Shown: positions 11,460 to 29,000 of the stretch, one piece after another
Layout: each line of letters starts with the position of its first letter
Numbering within the stretch: position 1 is the first letter of the stretch
Assembly (NCBI GenBank): GCA_009761415.1
Contig: QUOL01000011.1
Location: 682,001-746,000 of the forward strand
Length of the DNA stretch: 64,000 nt
Direction: 5' to 3'
DNA from: Sarcomyxa edulis
Lineage: Eukaryota; Basidiomycota; Agaricomycetes; Agaricales; Mycenaceae
Program-made: the position numbers and the translations under genes
Notes under the pieces: model-generated
Told to the model about the DNA's origin: nothing
Database searches by the model: none
What the model saw: only the letters and a program-made list of their open reading frames with translations

Positions 11460-13899
11460 TCAATTATCGCGCGATTCCCTAGTATTGGCAGTATGCAATG
11501 CTTGCAAAACCTGCTCTCTTCGCAACCACTTGGACTCGGGGGTGAAGTACCAGCTGAGTAGACCGAATATAGTAACGGCTCCGAATATAACACAAGCCTG
11601 AGAGACGTGTCAGCTCATTTGACTCATGCGTTAGCTGGATAATGAGCTTACGAAATTGAACGAATCAGATGCGACTGGGAAATAGAACGGAGAGATCATG
11701 ACCTGGAGAAATGGGGGCAAAGCATTAGGGATTGCGGGATAGAATACGGAAGAGGAGGAAAATGACATACAGCGAAAATGAGAGCGTTGAAGAGCGCTGC
11801 ACATAGATAGAAAGGTTTCGCGAAACGACCCAAGCGGAAATGGGATGATTGAAATTCGTCCGGAGTCATGGTCAATCTCAATAATGCGATCAGGCCATAT
11901 GCAGCGATAGTAGGAATCCCTCCAGCCGATACTAGCGAAGTGAAGGCGACTTGACTAGGAAGGATGGTGCATAATATGGCAGCACCGAAAACGAATATGA
12001 CGGTGACCGCGTTCTTAGGTTGTCCGTTTGCATCGACTTTGCCAATCCAGCCAGAGAATGGCAGAACGCCATCACGCGCAACGGCGAAAACGAGTCTGGA
12101 AGCGGCAACGATAGCAACACTTGTGTTCTAAAATTGTTACCTGGGTGAGTTGTTATATTTAAGGAAAGACGCGATGGACTTACGAGAATCAAGCCTACCA
12201 CGGCAATGATGGTCATGAAAATGCTAGGCCCCTTTCCCAGGGCGAGCGCGTAGATCTGCACGAAGGGCTGAGGTGCGTCTAAAGCGAAAACGGTGTCTAG
12301 ATCGGGAGTACAGAAGAGGAAGAGAATTGCGGTGGCGAAACCCAGGACACTCGTAGCCGCCGCACTAGTGAGAATGCCTTTTCCAGCTACAACACTAAAT
12401 TCGAAAAAGTCAGGACTGGCTGTAGGGAAAGTAGATGAAACGACTCACCTCGCGTTTTTGGTTTCTTCAGCGATGTGACCGGAAGCGTCGAAGCCAGTGA
12501 GTGTTCCGGCCGTAAATAGGCTGCGTATCCCGAATTAGTATGCTACATAACCTACGATGTGAAGTAACGTACAAAGATAACAGCCAATTCCATCCAGCAG
12601 GAGCACCGGTTCCGTTATCTATCGTTGAAACCGTGTCAACGAGATGCAGATAGACTGCACGAACGTGAGACTTACAAGTCATAGTGAATACGTCCTTGGC
12701 AGAGCGAAATCCGTAGGTTCTCGAGACGCCGATGGGTAACCAGATGACACACAAGAAAAAGTCTAGCATCATGATACCCACAGAAAATTTGAAGATCCCA
12801 GAGTACCATCGCGGAGGTAGGTAATTCATGCCGATCGAAAGAATGAGAAGACCCTCTGAGATTGCCCAGATAAGGGCACGCCATTTGATGTTGTCGTTTC
12901 CAATACCTCCGGGAAAGTAGACGTCCCAGACGGCCATTTCAGAGACAATATAATTGGCAGTCGTCTGTGATGGATTTTTGATTAACAATTACTCGGGATT
13001 GAGACAAGGTTGGGCAACACAAACCTGACAGTTACTTGCAGCGAACGTCATCCACGCTGTACATGCCCACCAGGCTACGATGAAGCCAAAAAATCTGGCG
13101 TACTTTGGGCCTGCACTTTCGGCAGCCCAGATATAGATGGAACCGCTCAAAGGGAGAGCGGAACAGATTTCTGCGAGAACGGCCGCGGTGATCATCATGA
13201 AGACGATGGTGATCAAATAAGAAGACCAAACAGCGGCGGGACCCCCTGCGAGAAGACCGAGGAAGAGAGCCGACCTTTATTTCGAGAATAAGCACCGTAG
13301 ACAATATAAGTGTCACGAGAAGAAACCCACCTCACGCCTCCGATGAAATTGAGAGCGCAGAAACTAGCGGCGAAACTCTCGATGAGATGCCAACTACGAT
13401 GAAGTTGCTAAAAGAAAGAAGAATAGAGAGGAACATAGGAGTTAGAGTTAAAATGATATACAACAATGTAAGACTCCTCACTTGCTTATAACCAAGATTT
13501 TTCTGGAAATATCAGGTCAGTATTTTCTGTCAGAGCTCCTCGAACAGGGAGCAATATAACAAAAACGATACTGGGGGGCTTCCCTACGCAGGTATGAGCG
13601 CTGATCAGGTTCAGGCGGTATTATCTCAATCCCTATCGTCTTTAGATGCTCAATTGTTCCACCATTGTCATAGACAATTGGCAGGCAAGAGATGACACCA
13701 AAGAATCAACAAGGATACCCGCAGCCATTCCAGTCGTGTAACTAGAAATCGACGTTACCGATGAAGGCTCAGCAGCCCAAGCCTAACACGCAAGGTGTCC
13801 CTCCCAGCCACGGTGTATAATCACCAGCTGCAGTTCGTCCTGGTCGACAACGGGGACGGCTTCATTATCGCTCCCGTCGGTTTTTGAGTCTGTGGACAT
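11460..13899 (-). CDS. APC-superfamily permease (GABA/amino acid permease type), candidate thiamine transporter
   Basis: Integral membrane transporter of about 530 residues with many introns. First exons: 13899-13825 (MSTDSKTDGSDNEAVPVV, acidic N-terminus), 13502-13482 (KNLGYKQ), 13407-13331 (LHRSWHLIESFAASFCALNF), 13274-13025. Membrane segments are evident, such as SSYLITIVFMMITAAVLAEI, FFGFIVAWWACTAWMTFAAS and MTIIAVVGLIL. Family signatures are ALPLSGSIYIWAAESAGPKY, FDASGHIAEETKNA, NTSVAIVAASRLVFAVARDG and GIPTIAAYGLIALLRLT; the tail is SWYFTPESKWLRREQVLQAL. The nearest annotation by homology is amino acid/GABA permease. The 322-nt first intron holds a TPP riboswitch, so I infer thiamine or a thiamine precursor as cargo. 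S. pombe Thi9 is a known thiamine transporter of this superfamily. Cargo is inferred, not shown. Confidence 0.88.
13576..13670 (-). ncRNA. TPP (thiamine pyrophosphate) riboswitch aptamer in an intron
   Basis: Read on the minus strand, the conserved blocks of the THI-box aptamer appear in order and spacing: TTGAGATAATACC (J3/2 and the P2 3' strand, family consensus CTGAGA), TGAACCTGATC (J2/4, 8-nt core ACCTGATC at 13603-13610), and GCGTAGGGAAG (13579-13589). P2 can pair GGTGG (13659-13663) with CCGCC (13614-13618). A short P3 can pair CAATT (13652-13656) with GATTG (13627-13631). P5 is CAG/CTG. I could not define P1. The element lies in the permease intron 13503-13824, between the exons encoding ...DELQL and KNLGYKQ. 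Fungal TPP riboswitches are known to control splicing. Retention here gives a stop after 38 codons. Confidence 0.92.
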
Positions 13900-14125: not shown

Positions 14126-17100
14126 TCACTGGATGTTGAACCGCTGGAAAAATTATTAGAGCTAGGAGTAATACAGAGCGCAAGAGAATTCGTACTGGTT
14201 TCAGTGCTCTGATAAGCTGCCATTCCTCCATCGACACATCGGCCTTGAAGGAGTCCTAAAGATTGGTATTTTAGTGCGTTAGGAGTGCGATATATGGCGA
14301 AAATTTTACCTTCAGCACGTCAATACTCTGCCGTGTGATGTGGCTCAGAAGCTCATCCTTATCGTCGAAATGTCGTCCGAACATCTTGGCCGACTGATAG
14401 ACCGCGTGTTCAATCTTAACGGCAACCCCACCTCCAGCTTGAGACTTCTTCACGACCTGCACAATGATGTAAGTAAGTAAGAAGCAATTAAACCCGTTGC
14501 ATAGGCTTACATCTTGAGTCTTGTGGTTAATCTCTAGAGATGTACTGGAAGCAGGGATCAGTGAAAGCAACCATAACTCGCGGCAGAGAGCCTACATTTT
14601 GCCAAGATCGATGATCTCCTTCTTCCCCGTGGTCGCGTCCGTTTTTACGACGGCAAGGGGGGTCCCTACTCTCAAAGAACCCTCGATGATATCGACACCG
14701 AGAATGATGGGGTCTCTTTTACAGAAGGCAGCGATAATCTTGAGGCGACACGGCCACACTGCTTGCGGGGCCGCATCTCGCCTCTTCGCTTCTGTAATCT
14801 CTTCATTGTAGGCCTTGAAGGCGTCGAATAGATGGTAAATGATATCGGCTGACGACCATGTGTGAGCAAATAATTGACACGCGGGAAGAAGAGAGCACCG
14901 ACCTTTGAACAGTTTGATGCCCATCTCATCCGCCATGCGTTCTGCATCTTTATCGACTGTGACATCGAAGCATAGTATACAAGCCAATTCTTTCGCCTTC
15001 TCCAACATGGATGCAGATCGCATAACATCACGTTTGTGCACCGGACCAATGTTGATACCAGAGACAGGAATTTTGCTTGATTTCAAGAAGTCGAGCAAGG
15101 CCTCCAACGACCCTAGCGTACTGGCTTGGACGCAAACACCCCGACCAGACTTGTCAATGTTGTTCAGCAGGGATGTCAAATCGGACATTACTTCATCTCG
15201 GAGGTCGTCCTCGTCGTCATCCGGTCCACAGACAAGTAAACGAGAACCAGCGATAGCCTTTTCCAAGTCTGGCGCGGTGATTTTGACACCAAGGGCAGCC
15301 TTGACCTCTTTGTGATGAACATACGCAGACTGACAGAGGGGATTAATTATTCGGTCATCATGACAGGGGAATAGACTCACTTTGATACGAAGTTCACGGA
15401 GGGGTTGCGGTGTAAGCAGTGCACGAATTTGTGTCACAATCGGTCCATTGAGACCGCAGACGACGATTTTATCGCCCTCATGTAAAATGCCGTTAGACAA
15501 GACGACATCAATGGTTGTTCCGAGGCCTTCAATCACTTTGACCTCTAGAACAGTACACTCGAGTTCGGACAAGTACATCAGCCGTTCACTCATGCGCTGT
15601 TGAGTCAGGTTTACGAGCAACATGATCATGTCAGGTATACCTTCGCCGGTGATGGCGGAGGTTGGGACCAGGGAGACGTTCCGGCCAAGATTTTTGTTGT
15701 CGTAGTAGAGCACGGCATTCAATCCCTCCTCGGCGAACGCGAGAATAGTCTTGGTGACACGATCTTCAAATTCGCGCTGGACAGCGCGGGATTGCTTCGC
15801 AAGTGATTCTTGGAAGGCACCATCTGGTGTCGGGTTCCAACTATATATTCGATCAATCTGAACGCAATCAAAATCGAAATCGGTCAAACGAGTTTTACAG
15901 AGGACAAACCTTGTTCAGAGCGACGATGAAGGGGGTTTTGCGATCTCTCAGTAATCGGAGAGATTCCAATGTCTGGGCCTCAAGGCCGTGCTAGAAGCAG
16001 GTCAGATCAGGAAAAGACTTGCTCAAGTGATTGCAGGCGTACCATGATATCAACAACGAGAATAGCAATATTACACAAGGAACTTCCACGAGAACGTAAA
16101 TTCGTAAAAGATTCGTGACCAGGAGTGTCGATCACAAGTAATCCGGGAACTTTGTACTCTTGTGAGCCGTCCTAAATTCATGATTAGACATACAAAGTAT
16201 GGCTTTCTGCTCGCAAGAGCGCACCTTGTTCAGCACTGCAGTCTTCGTCTTGATAGCGTCGACGGGGAAATACGTCGCTCCGATTTGTTGCGTGATACCC
16301 CCAGCTTCGCCTTCTTGGACATTTGTCTGACGAATCTTTAAGAATGAATGCTATTAGTATTGATCTGAAATGAAGGAAAAGAAGAGTCAACGAACTTTGT
16401 CCAACAATTTTGTTTTACCAGTATCGACATGCCCCAAAATACAACAGATAGGACTTCTTAAGTCGTCCTTGTTCCGTGCGGCGAGAGCCGCCTCGTGAGC
16501 CTTTGCGCGACGCTCAGCCGCTTCGGCTTTCCGCTGGGCAGCCATTTTCTGGGCTTGGGTCAGCTCCTCGTCCGACGACGAGTCATCGTCTTCAGAGTCA
16601 TCATCAGAACCAGACTCTGAGTCGTCATCGTCATCATCGTCGTCAGAATCTTCCTCGGATTCGGAAGATTCCTCCACAGGTGGCTTTGAAGCAGGACCGG
16701 CGGCGGCATTTTTGTCGGTAGCTTTTACTGGAGGTTTGGTAGCGGGTGAAGGTTTTGCTTTTGTCTCTGCACCTGGGAGCTTCAATATGAGTCAAAAATT
16801 CAGAGTCAATAACAAGAAATTCACCCTTCTGGTTGGTTTTGGCGGGTGCGGGGGTAGGAGTCGATTTTTTGCCTGCTGGTTGTTTCGTGGCGGTGGGAGG
16901 TGCAGGTGCAGGCGCACTATCTTCGTCTTCGCTGGAAGCATCCCAAGAGTCTTTGACGCCTTCCGAAGCTTTGACTTCCTCTTCGTCACTACTGGCATCC
17001 CAATCATCCTTGGGTTCATCGTTAGCCACTGACTTTGGCTTTTGTTGAGGTACCGGAGATGGAGACGGGGACGGGGACGGTGGGGGAAGTGGGGCAGACT

Positions 17101-18754: not shown

Positions 18755-18984
18755 CGAGGATTATTCTTAGATGTAGATCAATTCGTTCAACCGGCAGAAG
18801 GAAGAGCGGAAATAAAGCGAGAAAGCAAGGAGATTTCGCTGAAAGACCAGAGACTTGAGTGAGCCAACTCCAGCGGCTCCGGGTTGGGTTCGGCTCCACG
18901 TGGGTCTATCCGGCGCATCGGTCCTCCGCCAACTTGACGAGTACGGGACTTCTTGACTTGACTTGTTCCTCTCGATATTTCGCG
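18755..18984. promoter_or_regulatory. Divergent promoter, eIF5B / ARL2
   Basis: 230 bp between two divergent start codons. No clear TATA box was seen. Confidence 0.5.
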
Positions 18985-19960
18985 ATGGGTCTCCTCACTA
19001 TTATCAGGAAAAACCGACAGAAAGAGAAGGAAATGAGGATTTTATTCCTGTGGGTGTTCCTTGCCTTTTTGTGGTCCTCGTTTGAACGTTTCGACTTACG
19101 CAGCGGACTGGATAACGCGGGCAAGACCACCATTCTCAAGAAGCTCAACGGAGAAGATATCATGAGTGTAAGCCCCACACTTGGGTTCAACATAAAGACT
19201 TTCGTGCATGGCAAGTGAGATTTCAGTCTGTGAATTGATCTCATTAGATGGGCTTCTTTCTTACCCATTTATCTCAGATATACCCTAAATATCTGTGCGT
19301 GGACTCGCGCCCCACAACGCAGAATGATCTTCTCTCCAGTCTTGATCCTAATCTCCAGAGATTGACCGTGTAAACCTTCTCTCTAGGGGATGTCGGAGGC
19401 CAACGAACACTTCGCCCATATTGGCGTAACTATTTCGAACAAACAGACGCGTTAGTCTGGGTGGTTGATTCTGGAGATAGGATGCGCATGCAGGACTGCA
19501 AGGAAGAGCTTCATAGTCTCCTTCTTGAGGACGTGAGCACTCTGATCTAGCTATACAAACGATACCAGTCTCAATACTGCAAATGCATCTCAGCGTTTAG
19601 CAGGTGCATCGTTGCTCGTTTTTGCGAACAAACAGGATATACAAGGGTCTATGACCGACATCGAGATCCGAGATGTGAGTTCTTAAACTTTTTCTTCCAC
19701 CCCACCCCCTTTCTGTGCCCCACGCGACACCCTCGAGTCACCTGCCTTTTCATCTTGTTATCTTTCGCTCCTCCCAGGCACTCGACCTCCGATCCATTAA
19801 AACCCATCATTGGAAGATATGGTCCTGCAGTGCGGTGACAGGAAGCAATCTCGTCACGGGTCTTGACTGGGTGGTCGACGATGTAGCTGGACGGCTCTAT
19901 TACAGCTCAACCACAGCAGCACCGCCGAACGACAGATTGGCTCCCATTCCCATGACGTGA
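18985..19960 (+). CDS. ARL2: ADP-ribosylation factor-like GTPase 2
   Basis: Small GTPase of the tubulin-cofactor and microtubule pathway (yeast Cin4, S. pombe Alp41). Exons 18985-19049, 19104-19214, 19278-19294, 19387-19532, 19594-19674 and 19778-19960 give 200 residues. Motifs: start [21 protein letters not shown]-loop GLDNAGKTT, switch [11 protein letters not shown], switch II WDVGGQ, NKQD, and CSAVTG. Residue 2 is Gly, as in all ARF-like proteins, though Arl2 itself is usually not myristoylated. The signature [20 protein letters not shown] and the segment SIKTHHW fit ARL2 rather than ARF1 or ARL3. The third exon is only 17 nt. The C-terminus is about 15 residues longer than usual and Ala/Pro-rich. 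Confidence 0.95.
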
Positions 19961-26061: not shown

Positions 26062-29000
26062 TCAAGAGATCAAACGAGTGGGATCTAACTTGGTTATCCA
26101 GGAGTTCAGCTCTTTCTGACTAGGAGCAGAAAGTGCGTGCGAATTGGAGGAAGTGAAGAGCGTGAACGAAAACGGTTTCTGAAACGAGTTGTTAAAATAG
26201 ACCAAGAAAGAACGAGTGACATAGATTTACCCCGAGTAAAGACTCCTTGTGGGGGTCACTTTCGACATTTACACCATTCAAACTGACAATACCGACCTCC
26301 TCAAGTTCATTGGAGTGGGTATATATGTGCAAGTGTGGTCTAGATCACCATGTTTTGGTCAGAAAGACGGCATGAAGAATGACTGTTCACATGCATACCT
26401 TCTGAGGACAAACCAACGTTTTTCCCAAATGTTTCGACCAGCATCCGTCAGAATCATGAGATATCCTTTCTTCGCGGCTCCGTCACTGAAAGAAAGCCGT
26501 TCTGAGGAGCTGGTATCATTATTGAGTCCAATCGTGCACATACCTTCTTGGTATCAATTTAGTCTCTGAGACTAGTTTGAGGCCATCGATAGATTCGACG
26601 CTGGGGATCTTTCTGGAGGTAATACCAGATTCTTCGGGATCAGATGGGTCCTGGCTCAAGATTATCTGTGTGGATTGTGGCCATGAATACTAGGTAAACT
26701 TTTGCAAGGCAAATAAGACAAACCTCTCCTCGATGTCCGAATTTCTTTCGCCACAAGTCGACCGACTTTTGTAGTAGGTCATCCGTGCGCCACGCGTTCG
26801 ACTCCACTGTTACAGGACGAGGGAGAGTAGTCGAGAGTAGCACGCGTATGGCTTGAACATCTGCGGCGCGCCGTTCTGTAGAGACCAGCCTAGAATAATC
26901 TTCCACTGTAGAAATACCTCTAGGCTTCCACACTCCCAACGATTCCTCTCCACGAACATACTTCTCAGATGTGTCTAGCCGCCAAAGCTCTTTAGGTGAA
27001 CGTGTAAGTGGTGGTGATAGTCGTACACTAAATAATGTGCTAGTCTTGGACAAAATCTTGCTTGATCCTAGAAAGCTCAAAAACCTCGAAGGGGGACGAG
27101 CGTCGCGAGTTTGAATGGCGATGGCAAAATCCATACTGAACTCGATAGGATCACTACAAGTTTCGACGGCAACTGCCCAAATAATTTGCATCAAGATGCG
27201 CTGGTTTGCTGCCGTTACTCGATTCAGCAGCAAGGAGTCGTGAACACTAGAGTCCCACAACGCAACGGCTGATAAGGCGCCGGTACCATCGGGTTTGAAT
27301 TCCACGCTTTGTTCCTTCAATAGGGGGAGCGTCACGAGTGCTTTGGAGGACGAGGCATGAATCCGACCTTTGGGATCCAGCAGACGAACATTTCCTATTC
27401 GAACCTTCGTGAACTCTAGCCAAGGAAGTTGTTGACCAGAGTTAGAAGACAGTGATAAGGCTATTCGCCTTTGCAATCCCTGATGCAACGAAAATGATCC
27501 GGGGTCAAGGGTACCTTGAGAGACAACGGGCACGGGTACATATTGACCGTCCGGACCTAATTCACACAGCTGTAACCAGGCTACGACGTCGTGGGTCTGC
27601 TCGACGACGAAGTCTGTTTCGGACCGACGCATTGGTGGTAATATGGCTGGTCGACTGTCGGGGCTACCTGAAGCCGATGGGGGGAAAGCCTTTTGCTCTC
27701 TCATCTCATCCCACCGTTCCAGGCGTTCCAAGTACGTTGGTCTTAGGGACGCGAAGAACTCAATCGGAGCGTAACCCTGCTTTAGGTGAGTCAGAACTTT
27801 GGAAGAGGCGACGATGGAGAAGCTGCGGCGGAATTTCAACTCGGATAAAGTGTTTGTCTCGATGTCCACAGCAGGAGAGGGGAACACCTCTTCCGTCACT
27901 ACTGTGGGGCCAACGAAAGAGGATAACCGGACCTGAAGATGAACAGCAGAAAAATCGTGCGACGATAGACCTTTAACAGAGTCGATGGTCAGGAAGAAGC
28001 TAAGCTTACTGCCTGGCGGGACAGTTCCGGGCACTGGAGATGACGAGCGTGTGGAAGATGTGGATCCGTTGGCGTACTTGGACGAGAGAACCACGTTGAC
28101 TATCTTGATATCCACACGGCAAGAGCCAATTGCTTCGGCAGTGTATCGACAGAAGATTGGAACTGTGGAGGTAGAGGAAAGCCGTCTCGAAAGAAGAGCT
28201 AAGGAGATCAAGGCGTTGCCAATAAAGCAATACTCAGGTGGTGGCATATCGTAGAACGGTTCGTCGGAAGAGAAGTGTCGTGTATACGATGGTCGGTCGA
28301 TATAGGTGGTCAGATTCCGCATGCGCTGGAGTTGCTGCTGTAAGCGATCCAATGACCAGGTATATATAGCGTTATGGCGCTTGTCGAGGACCTTCACAGC
28401 CACGGATGGCTGAGTAGCGGAAGCAAGGACAGGATCTGCAACGTCTCCGAACTCATCTAATCCCGCGATGGTGTCGACAGCAGAAGAGGGAGCTCCAAGC
28501 GAGCCTCCCGCCGAAATTGTGAAGTTGTAGGACACATCTTTACCAAGCTCTTTGCTATACTCCACTTGTTACCGCGATACTCAATCCGGATAGAATTATC
28601 AGCTCACCTGATGATATTGGCCTCCTTGACAAGCACTGCGCTCGACAGGATGACCTCAGCCATGGAGAAAGAGCGATGCGACCTCCACTTGTCCAGTACC
28701 TTACGAATAAGCCTAAGCTGTCTCGCAGAGTAGATGACAGGTTCGAAATGTTCGATTTCGACATCAGTCTCACCTCGTGCACGAGCGTCGATAAGGCGTT
28801 TCATTTGTGACCGTACCAGTCTTAACTGGTGTTCCATATGATCCTTCTCGACCTGTAAATCCTCTGCCTCGGTTGATTCTCCTATAGCCTGTAATCGATT
28901 CTCCAGCTGATTTTGTACGTCCTTCAACGAGTCATCCATCTCGGGACTTCCATGACTATTAGGGATGCCCCAGCTAGTATCATCGGTGGTGGCATCACTG

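Follow-up and report, generated by a model that had tools for sequence, protein, structure and literature searches.

The window, a 64,000-nt stretch of a mushroom genome that we searched as 35.6 Mb in 40 contigs, carries on its minus strand a permease gene preceded by the end of an eIF5B gene. The features at this locus are the following.

11460..13899, minus strand: APC-superfamily permease gene with 11 coding exons, encoding 528 aa; start codon at 13899, stop codon ending at 11460
13825..13899, minus strand: exon 1, 25 codons
13503..13824, minus strand: intron 1, 322 nt, the riboswitch host
13482..13502, minus strand: exon 2, a 21-nt micro-exon (KNLGYKQ) directly after the riboswitch intron
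14126..15914, minus strand: 3' part of the eIF5B gene, upstream of the permease; last exon and stop assigned by eye

Rebuilt exon by exon, the permease exon chain contains 0 internal stops and gives an intact protein of 528 aa. Introns 1 to 10 measure 322, 74, 56, 60, 57, 52, 54, 56, 68 and 54 nt; the first is thus about six times the local norm, as an earlier sequence-only reading of this DNA had stated, with the gene's other nine introns spanning 52-74 nt. That reading had also called the protein an APC permease, in agreement with its match to Pfam AA_permease_2 (E 3.8e-46). Against the NCBIfam subfamily TIGR00907 the protein reaches E 1.1e-69, yet stays under the family cut-off. The eIF5B gene ends with a stop codon at 14128-14126, leaving 226 nt to the start codon of the permease on the same strand, and the region 14595-15914 matches Pfam IF-2 (E 7e-15) and GTP_EFTU_D2 (E 1.5e-8).

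We compared the permease with its relatives, scoring 8000 candidates and finding 824 homologues, 120 of which are listed. Among these 120, the closest full-length relative is P0001 of Mycena latifolia (84% identity over 98%), shorter and partly metagenomic relatives reach up to 87% identity over 84%, and the best named relatives are permeases of Mycena and other mushrooms. Other relatives within the same genome are distant, with 26-36% identity over fragments. In viral contigs, 9 stretches fit the permease pattern and 0 were confirmed, and a sequence search for a relative with a solved structure returned none at E<=0.001. Six homologues out of the 120 listed (P0013, P0025, P0029, P0044, P0057 and P0078) apparently lack exon 2 in frame; either an error of gene prediction or genuine exon skipping could explain this.

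Intron 1 was examined with covariance models and sequence patterns. In an Rfam scan of the window at gathering thresholds, no family reaches its score. At relaxed thresholds, RF00059 matches 13563-13645 on the minus strand with 28.1 bits (gathering cut-off 54.3; E 0.015 in the window), and in a genome-wide search intron 1 is the sole match at E<=10 (E 0.0257). The RF00059 alignment of intron 1 omits P3. According to PMC11683625, RF00059 often reports fungal aptamers incompletely once P3 exceeds about 60 nt, and the P3 described here, at 88 nt, is longer than the model follows by that account. The locus shows, in all its parts, a mushroom TPP riboswitch that escapes the standard Rfam model.

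The pattern TGAGAT..ACC..TGAACCTGATC occurs once in the 35.6 Mb, as does CCTGAT..GCGTAGGGA, and each has 0 occurrences in its reversed control. The aptamer core pattern has 0 matches in viral contigs and 0 in bacterial and archaeal genome contigs. The three core blocks named in the sequence-only reading are located on the minus strand at 13629-13617, 13613-13603 and 13589-13579. As a whole, intron 1 folds better than 100 of 100 of its shuffles (z -4.30); for the 113-nt piece 13563-13675, near the aptamer bounds of that reading, z is 0.21 and 108 of 200 shuffles are at least equal. Could the resemblance to a THI-box be due to chance? The failure to match at the gathering score would fit this, but we regard it as extremely improbable given the sole RF00059 match, the unique core patterns, the shuffle tests and the gene models of five relatives described below; moreover, the TPPsw-AA group of riboswitches is known to associate with such genes. 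The proposal that the first coding intron of this APC permease contains a TPP aptamer is well supported.

The aptamer contains the following elements.

13577..13726, minus strand: TPP aptamer, defined by named pairs, by a 28.1-bit RF00059 match to a portion of it and by its translation in five relatives' gene models
GGCU 13726-13723 with AGCC 13580-13577, minus strand: P1 pairing
GGU 13719-13717 with ACC 13619-13617, minus strand: P2 pairing
AUCCUUGUUG 13716-13707 with CGAUAGGGAU 13638-13629, minus strand: P3 pairs, continued by a stable arm
13629..13716, minus strand: extended P3 arm, 88 nt, with 10 contiguous pairs immediately after P2
13609-13606 with 13586-13583, minus strand: P4 pairing
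13603-13599 with 13592-13589, minus strand: P5 pairing with one bulged C
13623..13628, minus strand: TGAGAT, the pyrimidine-sensing motif, containing GAGAT (13627-13623)
13587..13589, minus strand: GCG motif on the pyrophosphate side
13593..13598, minus strand: L5, CUCAUA, which departs from RUAAUR

Helices P1 to P5 occur in order and every named pair is a standard pair. When the upstream intron is shuffled by dinucleotides while the 3' strands are held constant, a P2 with a P3 of at least 10 bp immediately after it arises in only 4 of 10,000 shuffles. In the free ensemble the P3 pairs (13716-13707/13638-13629) have probabilities of 0.86-1.00; ligand-free, the P1, P4 and P5 pairs have a probability of 0.00 and P2 one of 0.03-0.07. 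The bounds of 13576-13670 previously proposed for the aptamer do not hold, since the true 5' half lies at 13726-13707 and P1-P3 begin at 13726. Two other pairings were rejected by eye: a 10-bp P1 made of AAAGACGAUA and UAUCGUUUUU (13643-13634/13570-13561) forces an aptamer devoid of P3, whereas 13726-13707 supplies P1, P2 and P3, and a P2 at GGUGG near 13663 leaves no P1. The same AAAGACGAUA, which is part of the P3 3' strand, can nevertheless form 10 bp with UAUCGUUUUU, which lies 3' of the aptamer; this pairing could reflect either chance or an additional alternative fold.

G13606 and G13587, which by comparison with E. coli thiM would be the two J4/5 guanines, are separated by 19 positions rather than the 18 expected of a TPP riboswitch, owing to the bulged C in P5. 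The two TPP-contacting motifs, GAGAU and GCG, to which PMC5882874 assigns roles at the two ends of the ligand, are both intact.

Relatives' gene models provide a separate view of the aptamer. Among the 120 listed homologues, 67 are usable, having at least 15 residues ahead of the shared permease part. We translated the window aptamer in three frames and compared it with these 67 N-termini, using 100 rounds of shuffling. The aptamer is found as protein in 5 of the 67, with scores of 65-89, where the highest value in any round of shuffling was 44: P0040 (metagenome), P0065 (Mycena olivaceomarginata), P0035 (Cyclocybe aegerita), P0031 (Lentinula raphanica) and P0034 (Gymnopilus dilepis). Judged from their residues, these five permease models seem to start within the riboswitch intron and to read it as protein, and some public protein models would accordingly contain a translated riboswitch. 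The window bases compatible with the residues number 45/48 for P0034, 53/57 for P0035, 43/45 for P0031, 44/45 for P0040 and 43/45 for P0065. Just 5' of the translated core, compatibility is 28/30 for P0031, 28/30 for P0040 and 26/30 for P0065. The aptamer 5' half is recognizable in P0031, P0040, P0065 and P0119 (Lactarius indigo), where 20 or 21 of 21 bases are compatible; these matches are short, with scores of 33-41 that fall within the shuffle range, and they count only because they stand at the predicted place.

The aptamer is translated in two different reading frames, indicating that the RNA and not the peptide is kept. The codon spacing in the five models gives the same 19-position J4/5 separation. 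The residues of P0034, P0035 and P0040 do not allow the U of J4/5 at 13604, a position that therefore varies among relatives. A search for more translated riboswitches with residues 1-64 of P0031 and 1-66 of P0035 returned only the queries themselves. Two Mycena models among the 120 listed, P0017 and P0046, run from exon 1 into residues that start with V (window 13824-13759), which would fit transcripts that retain the beginning of the riboswitch intron and are spliced from a later donor.

The conservation in relatives bears on the possibility that the aptamer is degraded or does not switch, its fold being a remnant and splicing of the intron insensitive to thiamine. The low RF00059 score, the modelled free fold that strongly excludes the aptamer, the one-base expansion of P5 and the altered L5 are consistent with a remnant, and diatoms provide a precedent (PMC9544697) for predicted riboswitches that need not respond. 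However, a core kept in five relatives and in two reading frames is not expected of a remnant, and GAGAU and GCG are intact. We therefore consider a remnant unlikely.

We compared the element with the known fungal TPP riboswitches. Riboswitches of amino-acid transporters were reported in 2018 to be widespread in Basidiomycota (PMC5882874), and in a 2024 survey covering 156 fungi of medical relevance, TPPsw-AA is the most prevalent TPP riboswitch group of this phylum and is described as having no RUAAUR in L5 (PMC11683625). PMC5997356, citing Moldovan et al. 2018, states that basidiomycete Thi9 orthologues contain riboswitches. The element shares with TPPsw-AA the phylum, the transporter family, an internal intron of 200-400 nt, the TPP-contacting motifs, a long P3 and an L5 that is not RUAAUR, and it differs in the bulged C of P5 and in the J4/5 guanines, which are 19 and not 18 apart. 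Type III control (PMC5882874) involves an internal intron of 200-400 nt with a stop between two donors upstream of the aptamer, a mode that the paper states to be without experimental proof. The 322-nt internal intron and the in-frame stop upstream of the aptamer agree with this description, whereas the second donor, S2, is a candidate here. The DUR31 riboswitch of Candida parapsilosis, which lies in a thiamine transporter gene and through which thiamine increases unspliced RNA, likewise has a premature stop between two donors (PMC5997356); it resembles the arrangement described here, with S2 as a candidate, but belongs to a different transporter family and phylum.

The sequence-only reading had presented the locus as a new regulatory unit. 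This part of it falls, as transporter riboswitches and Type III control were published in 2018 (PMC5882874) and the group is the commonest of Basidiomycota in the 2024 survey (PMC11683625). The element fits the TPPsw-AA descriptions and is a new example, not a new type of switch; the P5 expansion, the explanation of the eIF5B riboswitch given below and the translated gene models may be new details.

Upstream of the aptamer, intron 1 contains the elements through which it could act on splicing.

13819..13824, minus strand: donor S1, GTGATT, set by the exon chain
13768..13806, minus strand: 39-nt segment just downstream of S1, whose possible pairing with the aptamer 3' half would replace the aptamer fold
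13783..13785, minus strand: in-frame TAG, reached if the start of intron 1 is retained; the read-through is 38 residues
13753..13758, minus strand: GTAACG, a candidate for a second donor (S2), located 3' of the TAG

Donor S1 is presumably weak against the usual fungal consensus; the S2 candidate at 13758 is well placed and weak as a donor. Translation from exon 1 into the intron gives 38 residues followed by TAG (13785-13783), precisely the read-through of 38 codons reported earlier, and supports the view that keeping the intron start would turn the gene off. The duplex of 13806-13768 with the aptamer 3' half has an energy of -40.2 kcal/mol (shuffle mean -26.3, sd 3.8), a value reached by 1 in 1000 shuffles, while the short pairing of GCGUAGGGAAG with 13796-13787 is not significant by itself (92/1000 shuffles). 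The pairing of 13806-13768 and the aptamer fold are mutually exclusive, as are the alternative pairing and the aptamer in published fungal switches (PMC5882874). When the aptamer is enforced, the mean unpaired probability of the S2 candidate is 0.53, compared with 0.26 in the free ensemble; the accessibility of S1 is the same in both folds (0.39 and 0.40). The free fold is better than the aptamer fold by 15.7 kcal/mol over a 402-nt stretch and by 11.8 kcal/mol for the intron alone with fewer pairs enforced. In these models, the gap is large for a ligand to close at equilibrium, and folding during transcription would have to help.

We infer that intron 1 binds TPP, that binding directs the choice of splice site, that the control is negative, and that the permease transports thiamine or a precursor, the substrate suggested in the sequence-only reading. 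At low TPP, 13806-13768 would pair with the aptamer 3' half, the aptamer would not form, and the full intron would be spliced out from S1 (13824) to allow the transporter to be made. At high TPP, the ligand would hold the aptamer together and free the 5' part of the intron, S1 would be used less, and a form spliced from a downstream donor (about 13758) or left unspliced would dominate. Both of these products would retain the TAG and encode only 38 residues. Intron 1 is thus very probably a vitamin B1 sensor made of RNA that decides whether the transcript is correctly spliced, and it is likely that a TPPsw-AA riboswitch in the first coding intron switches the permease through splicing, with TPP as the off signal.

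A working TPP aptamer might also have another output, such as a choice at the intron start or of exon 2, or control of the opposite sign. The S1 accessibility that stays unchanged in the model and the 21-nt exon 2 skipped by 6 of the 120 listed gene models would be in keeping with this, but the skipping may be an artefact of prediction, and a stop located between S1 and the S2 candidate is in line with the published off-switch. We judge another output to be quite improbable, and the splicing off-switch remains our preferred reading.

The neighboring gene raises the question of which transcript the element belongs to. PMC5882874 reports TPP riboswitches in an eIF5B intron of Gloeophyllum trabeum and in the eIF5B 3' UTR of Postia placenta as an "unusual exception"; in a literature collection poor in subscription journals, it was the one paper found to mention both TPP riboswitches and eIF5B. 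Together with the position of the eIF5B end, 226 nt upstream on the same strand, these two fungi would suit an element that is an intron or 3'-UTR riboswitch of eIF5B. The element sits, however, between two coding exons of the permease, and the two genes are mixed up in database models: of the 120 listed homologues, one, P0082 (Agrocybe chaxingu), fuses eIF5B to the permease, with an N-terminal part identical to the window eIF5B at 48/61 residues, and four permeases (P0014, P0009, P0052 and P0108) are named eIF5B. Ownership by eIF5B is very unlikely here. Conversely, since eIF5B ends so close upstream of the permease, the published eIF5B riboswitch may be a permease riboswitch misassigned to the neighbor, which would be the simplest way to account for this unusual published case.

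We also searched the genome for the thiamine pathway. THI4 is present (one ORF checked), as are domains of the TMP-TENI, phosphomethylpyrimidine-kinase and thiamine pyrophosphokinase types. For HMP synthase (NMT1/THI5), the PF09084 search of the genome gave nothing at E<=0.001 and the PF13379 search nothing at E<=10; the control genomes were prokaryotic, and the sensitivity of the search for an intron-split fungal gene is unproven by them. The sole weak PF09084 match at E<=10 (20.0 bits) proved to be HisG and not NMT1. Pfam describes PF09084 as "NMT1/THI5 like", and we assume that fungal THI5 proteins fall in it. If the absence of HMP synthase is real, the fungus must import thiamine or HMP, and the permease would be the natural candidate for this uptake. 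Thi9 of S. pombe, a thiamine carrier that resembles amino-acid transporters, shows that this superfamily can carry thiamine, as the sequence-only reading had noted.

The permease can be named as a likely way of entry for vitamin B1 or its pyrimidine in a fungus in whose genome our searches did not find HMP synthase. We tentatively suggest, as a broader view that could well prove wrong in some part, that the sole TPP riboswitch of a mushroom lacking HMP synthase gates the import of thiamine or its pyrimidine, that this element, located between eIF5B and exon 2 of the permease, is the one described for Gloeophyllum and Postia as a riboswitch of eIF5B, and that it represents an Agaricales form with a conserved one-base expansion of P5.

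Elsewhere in the window, 1163-1942 encodes a MIF4G-like protein (Pfam E 1.1e-54) and 26640-28565 a KIF1-type kinesin (DUF3694, E 5.7e-55), and a reading frame on the plus strand at 18859-19268 contains, by eye, an ARF-like GTPase motif.
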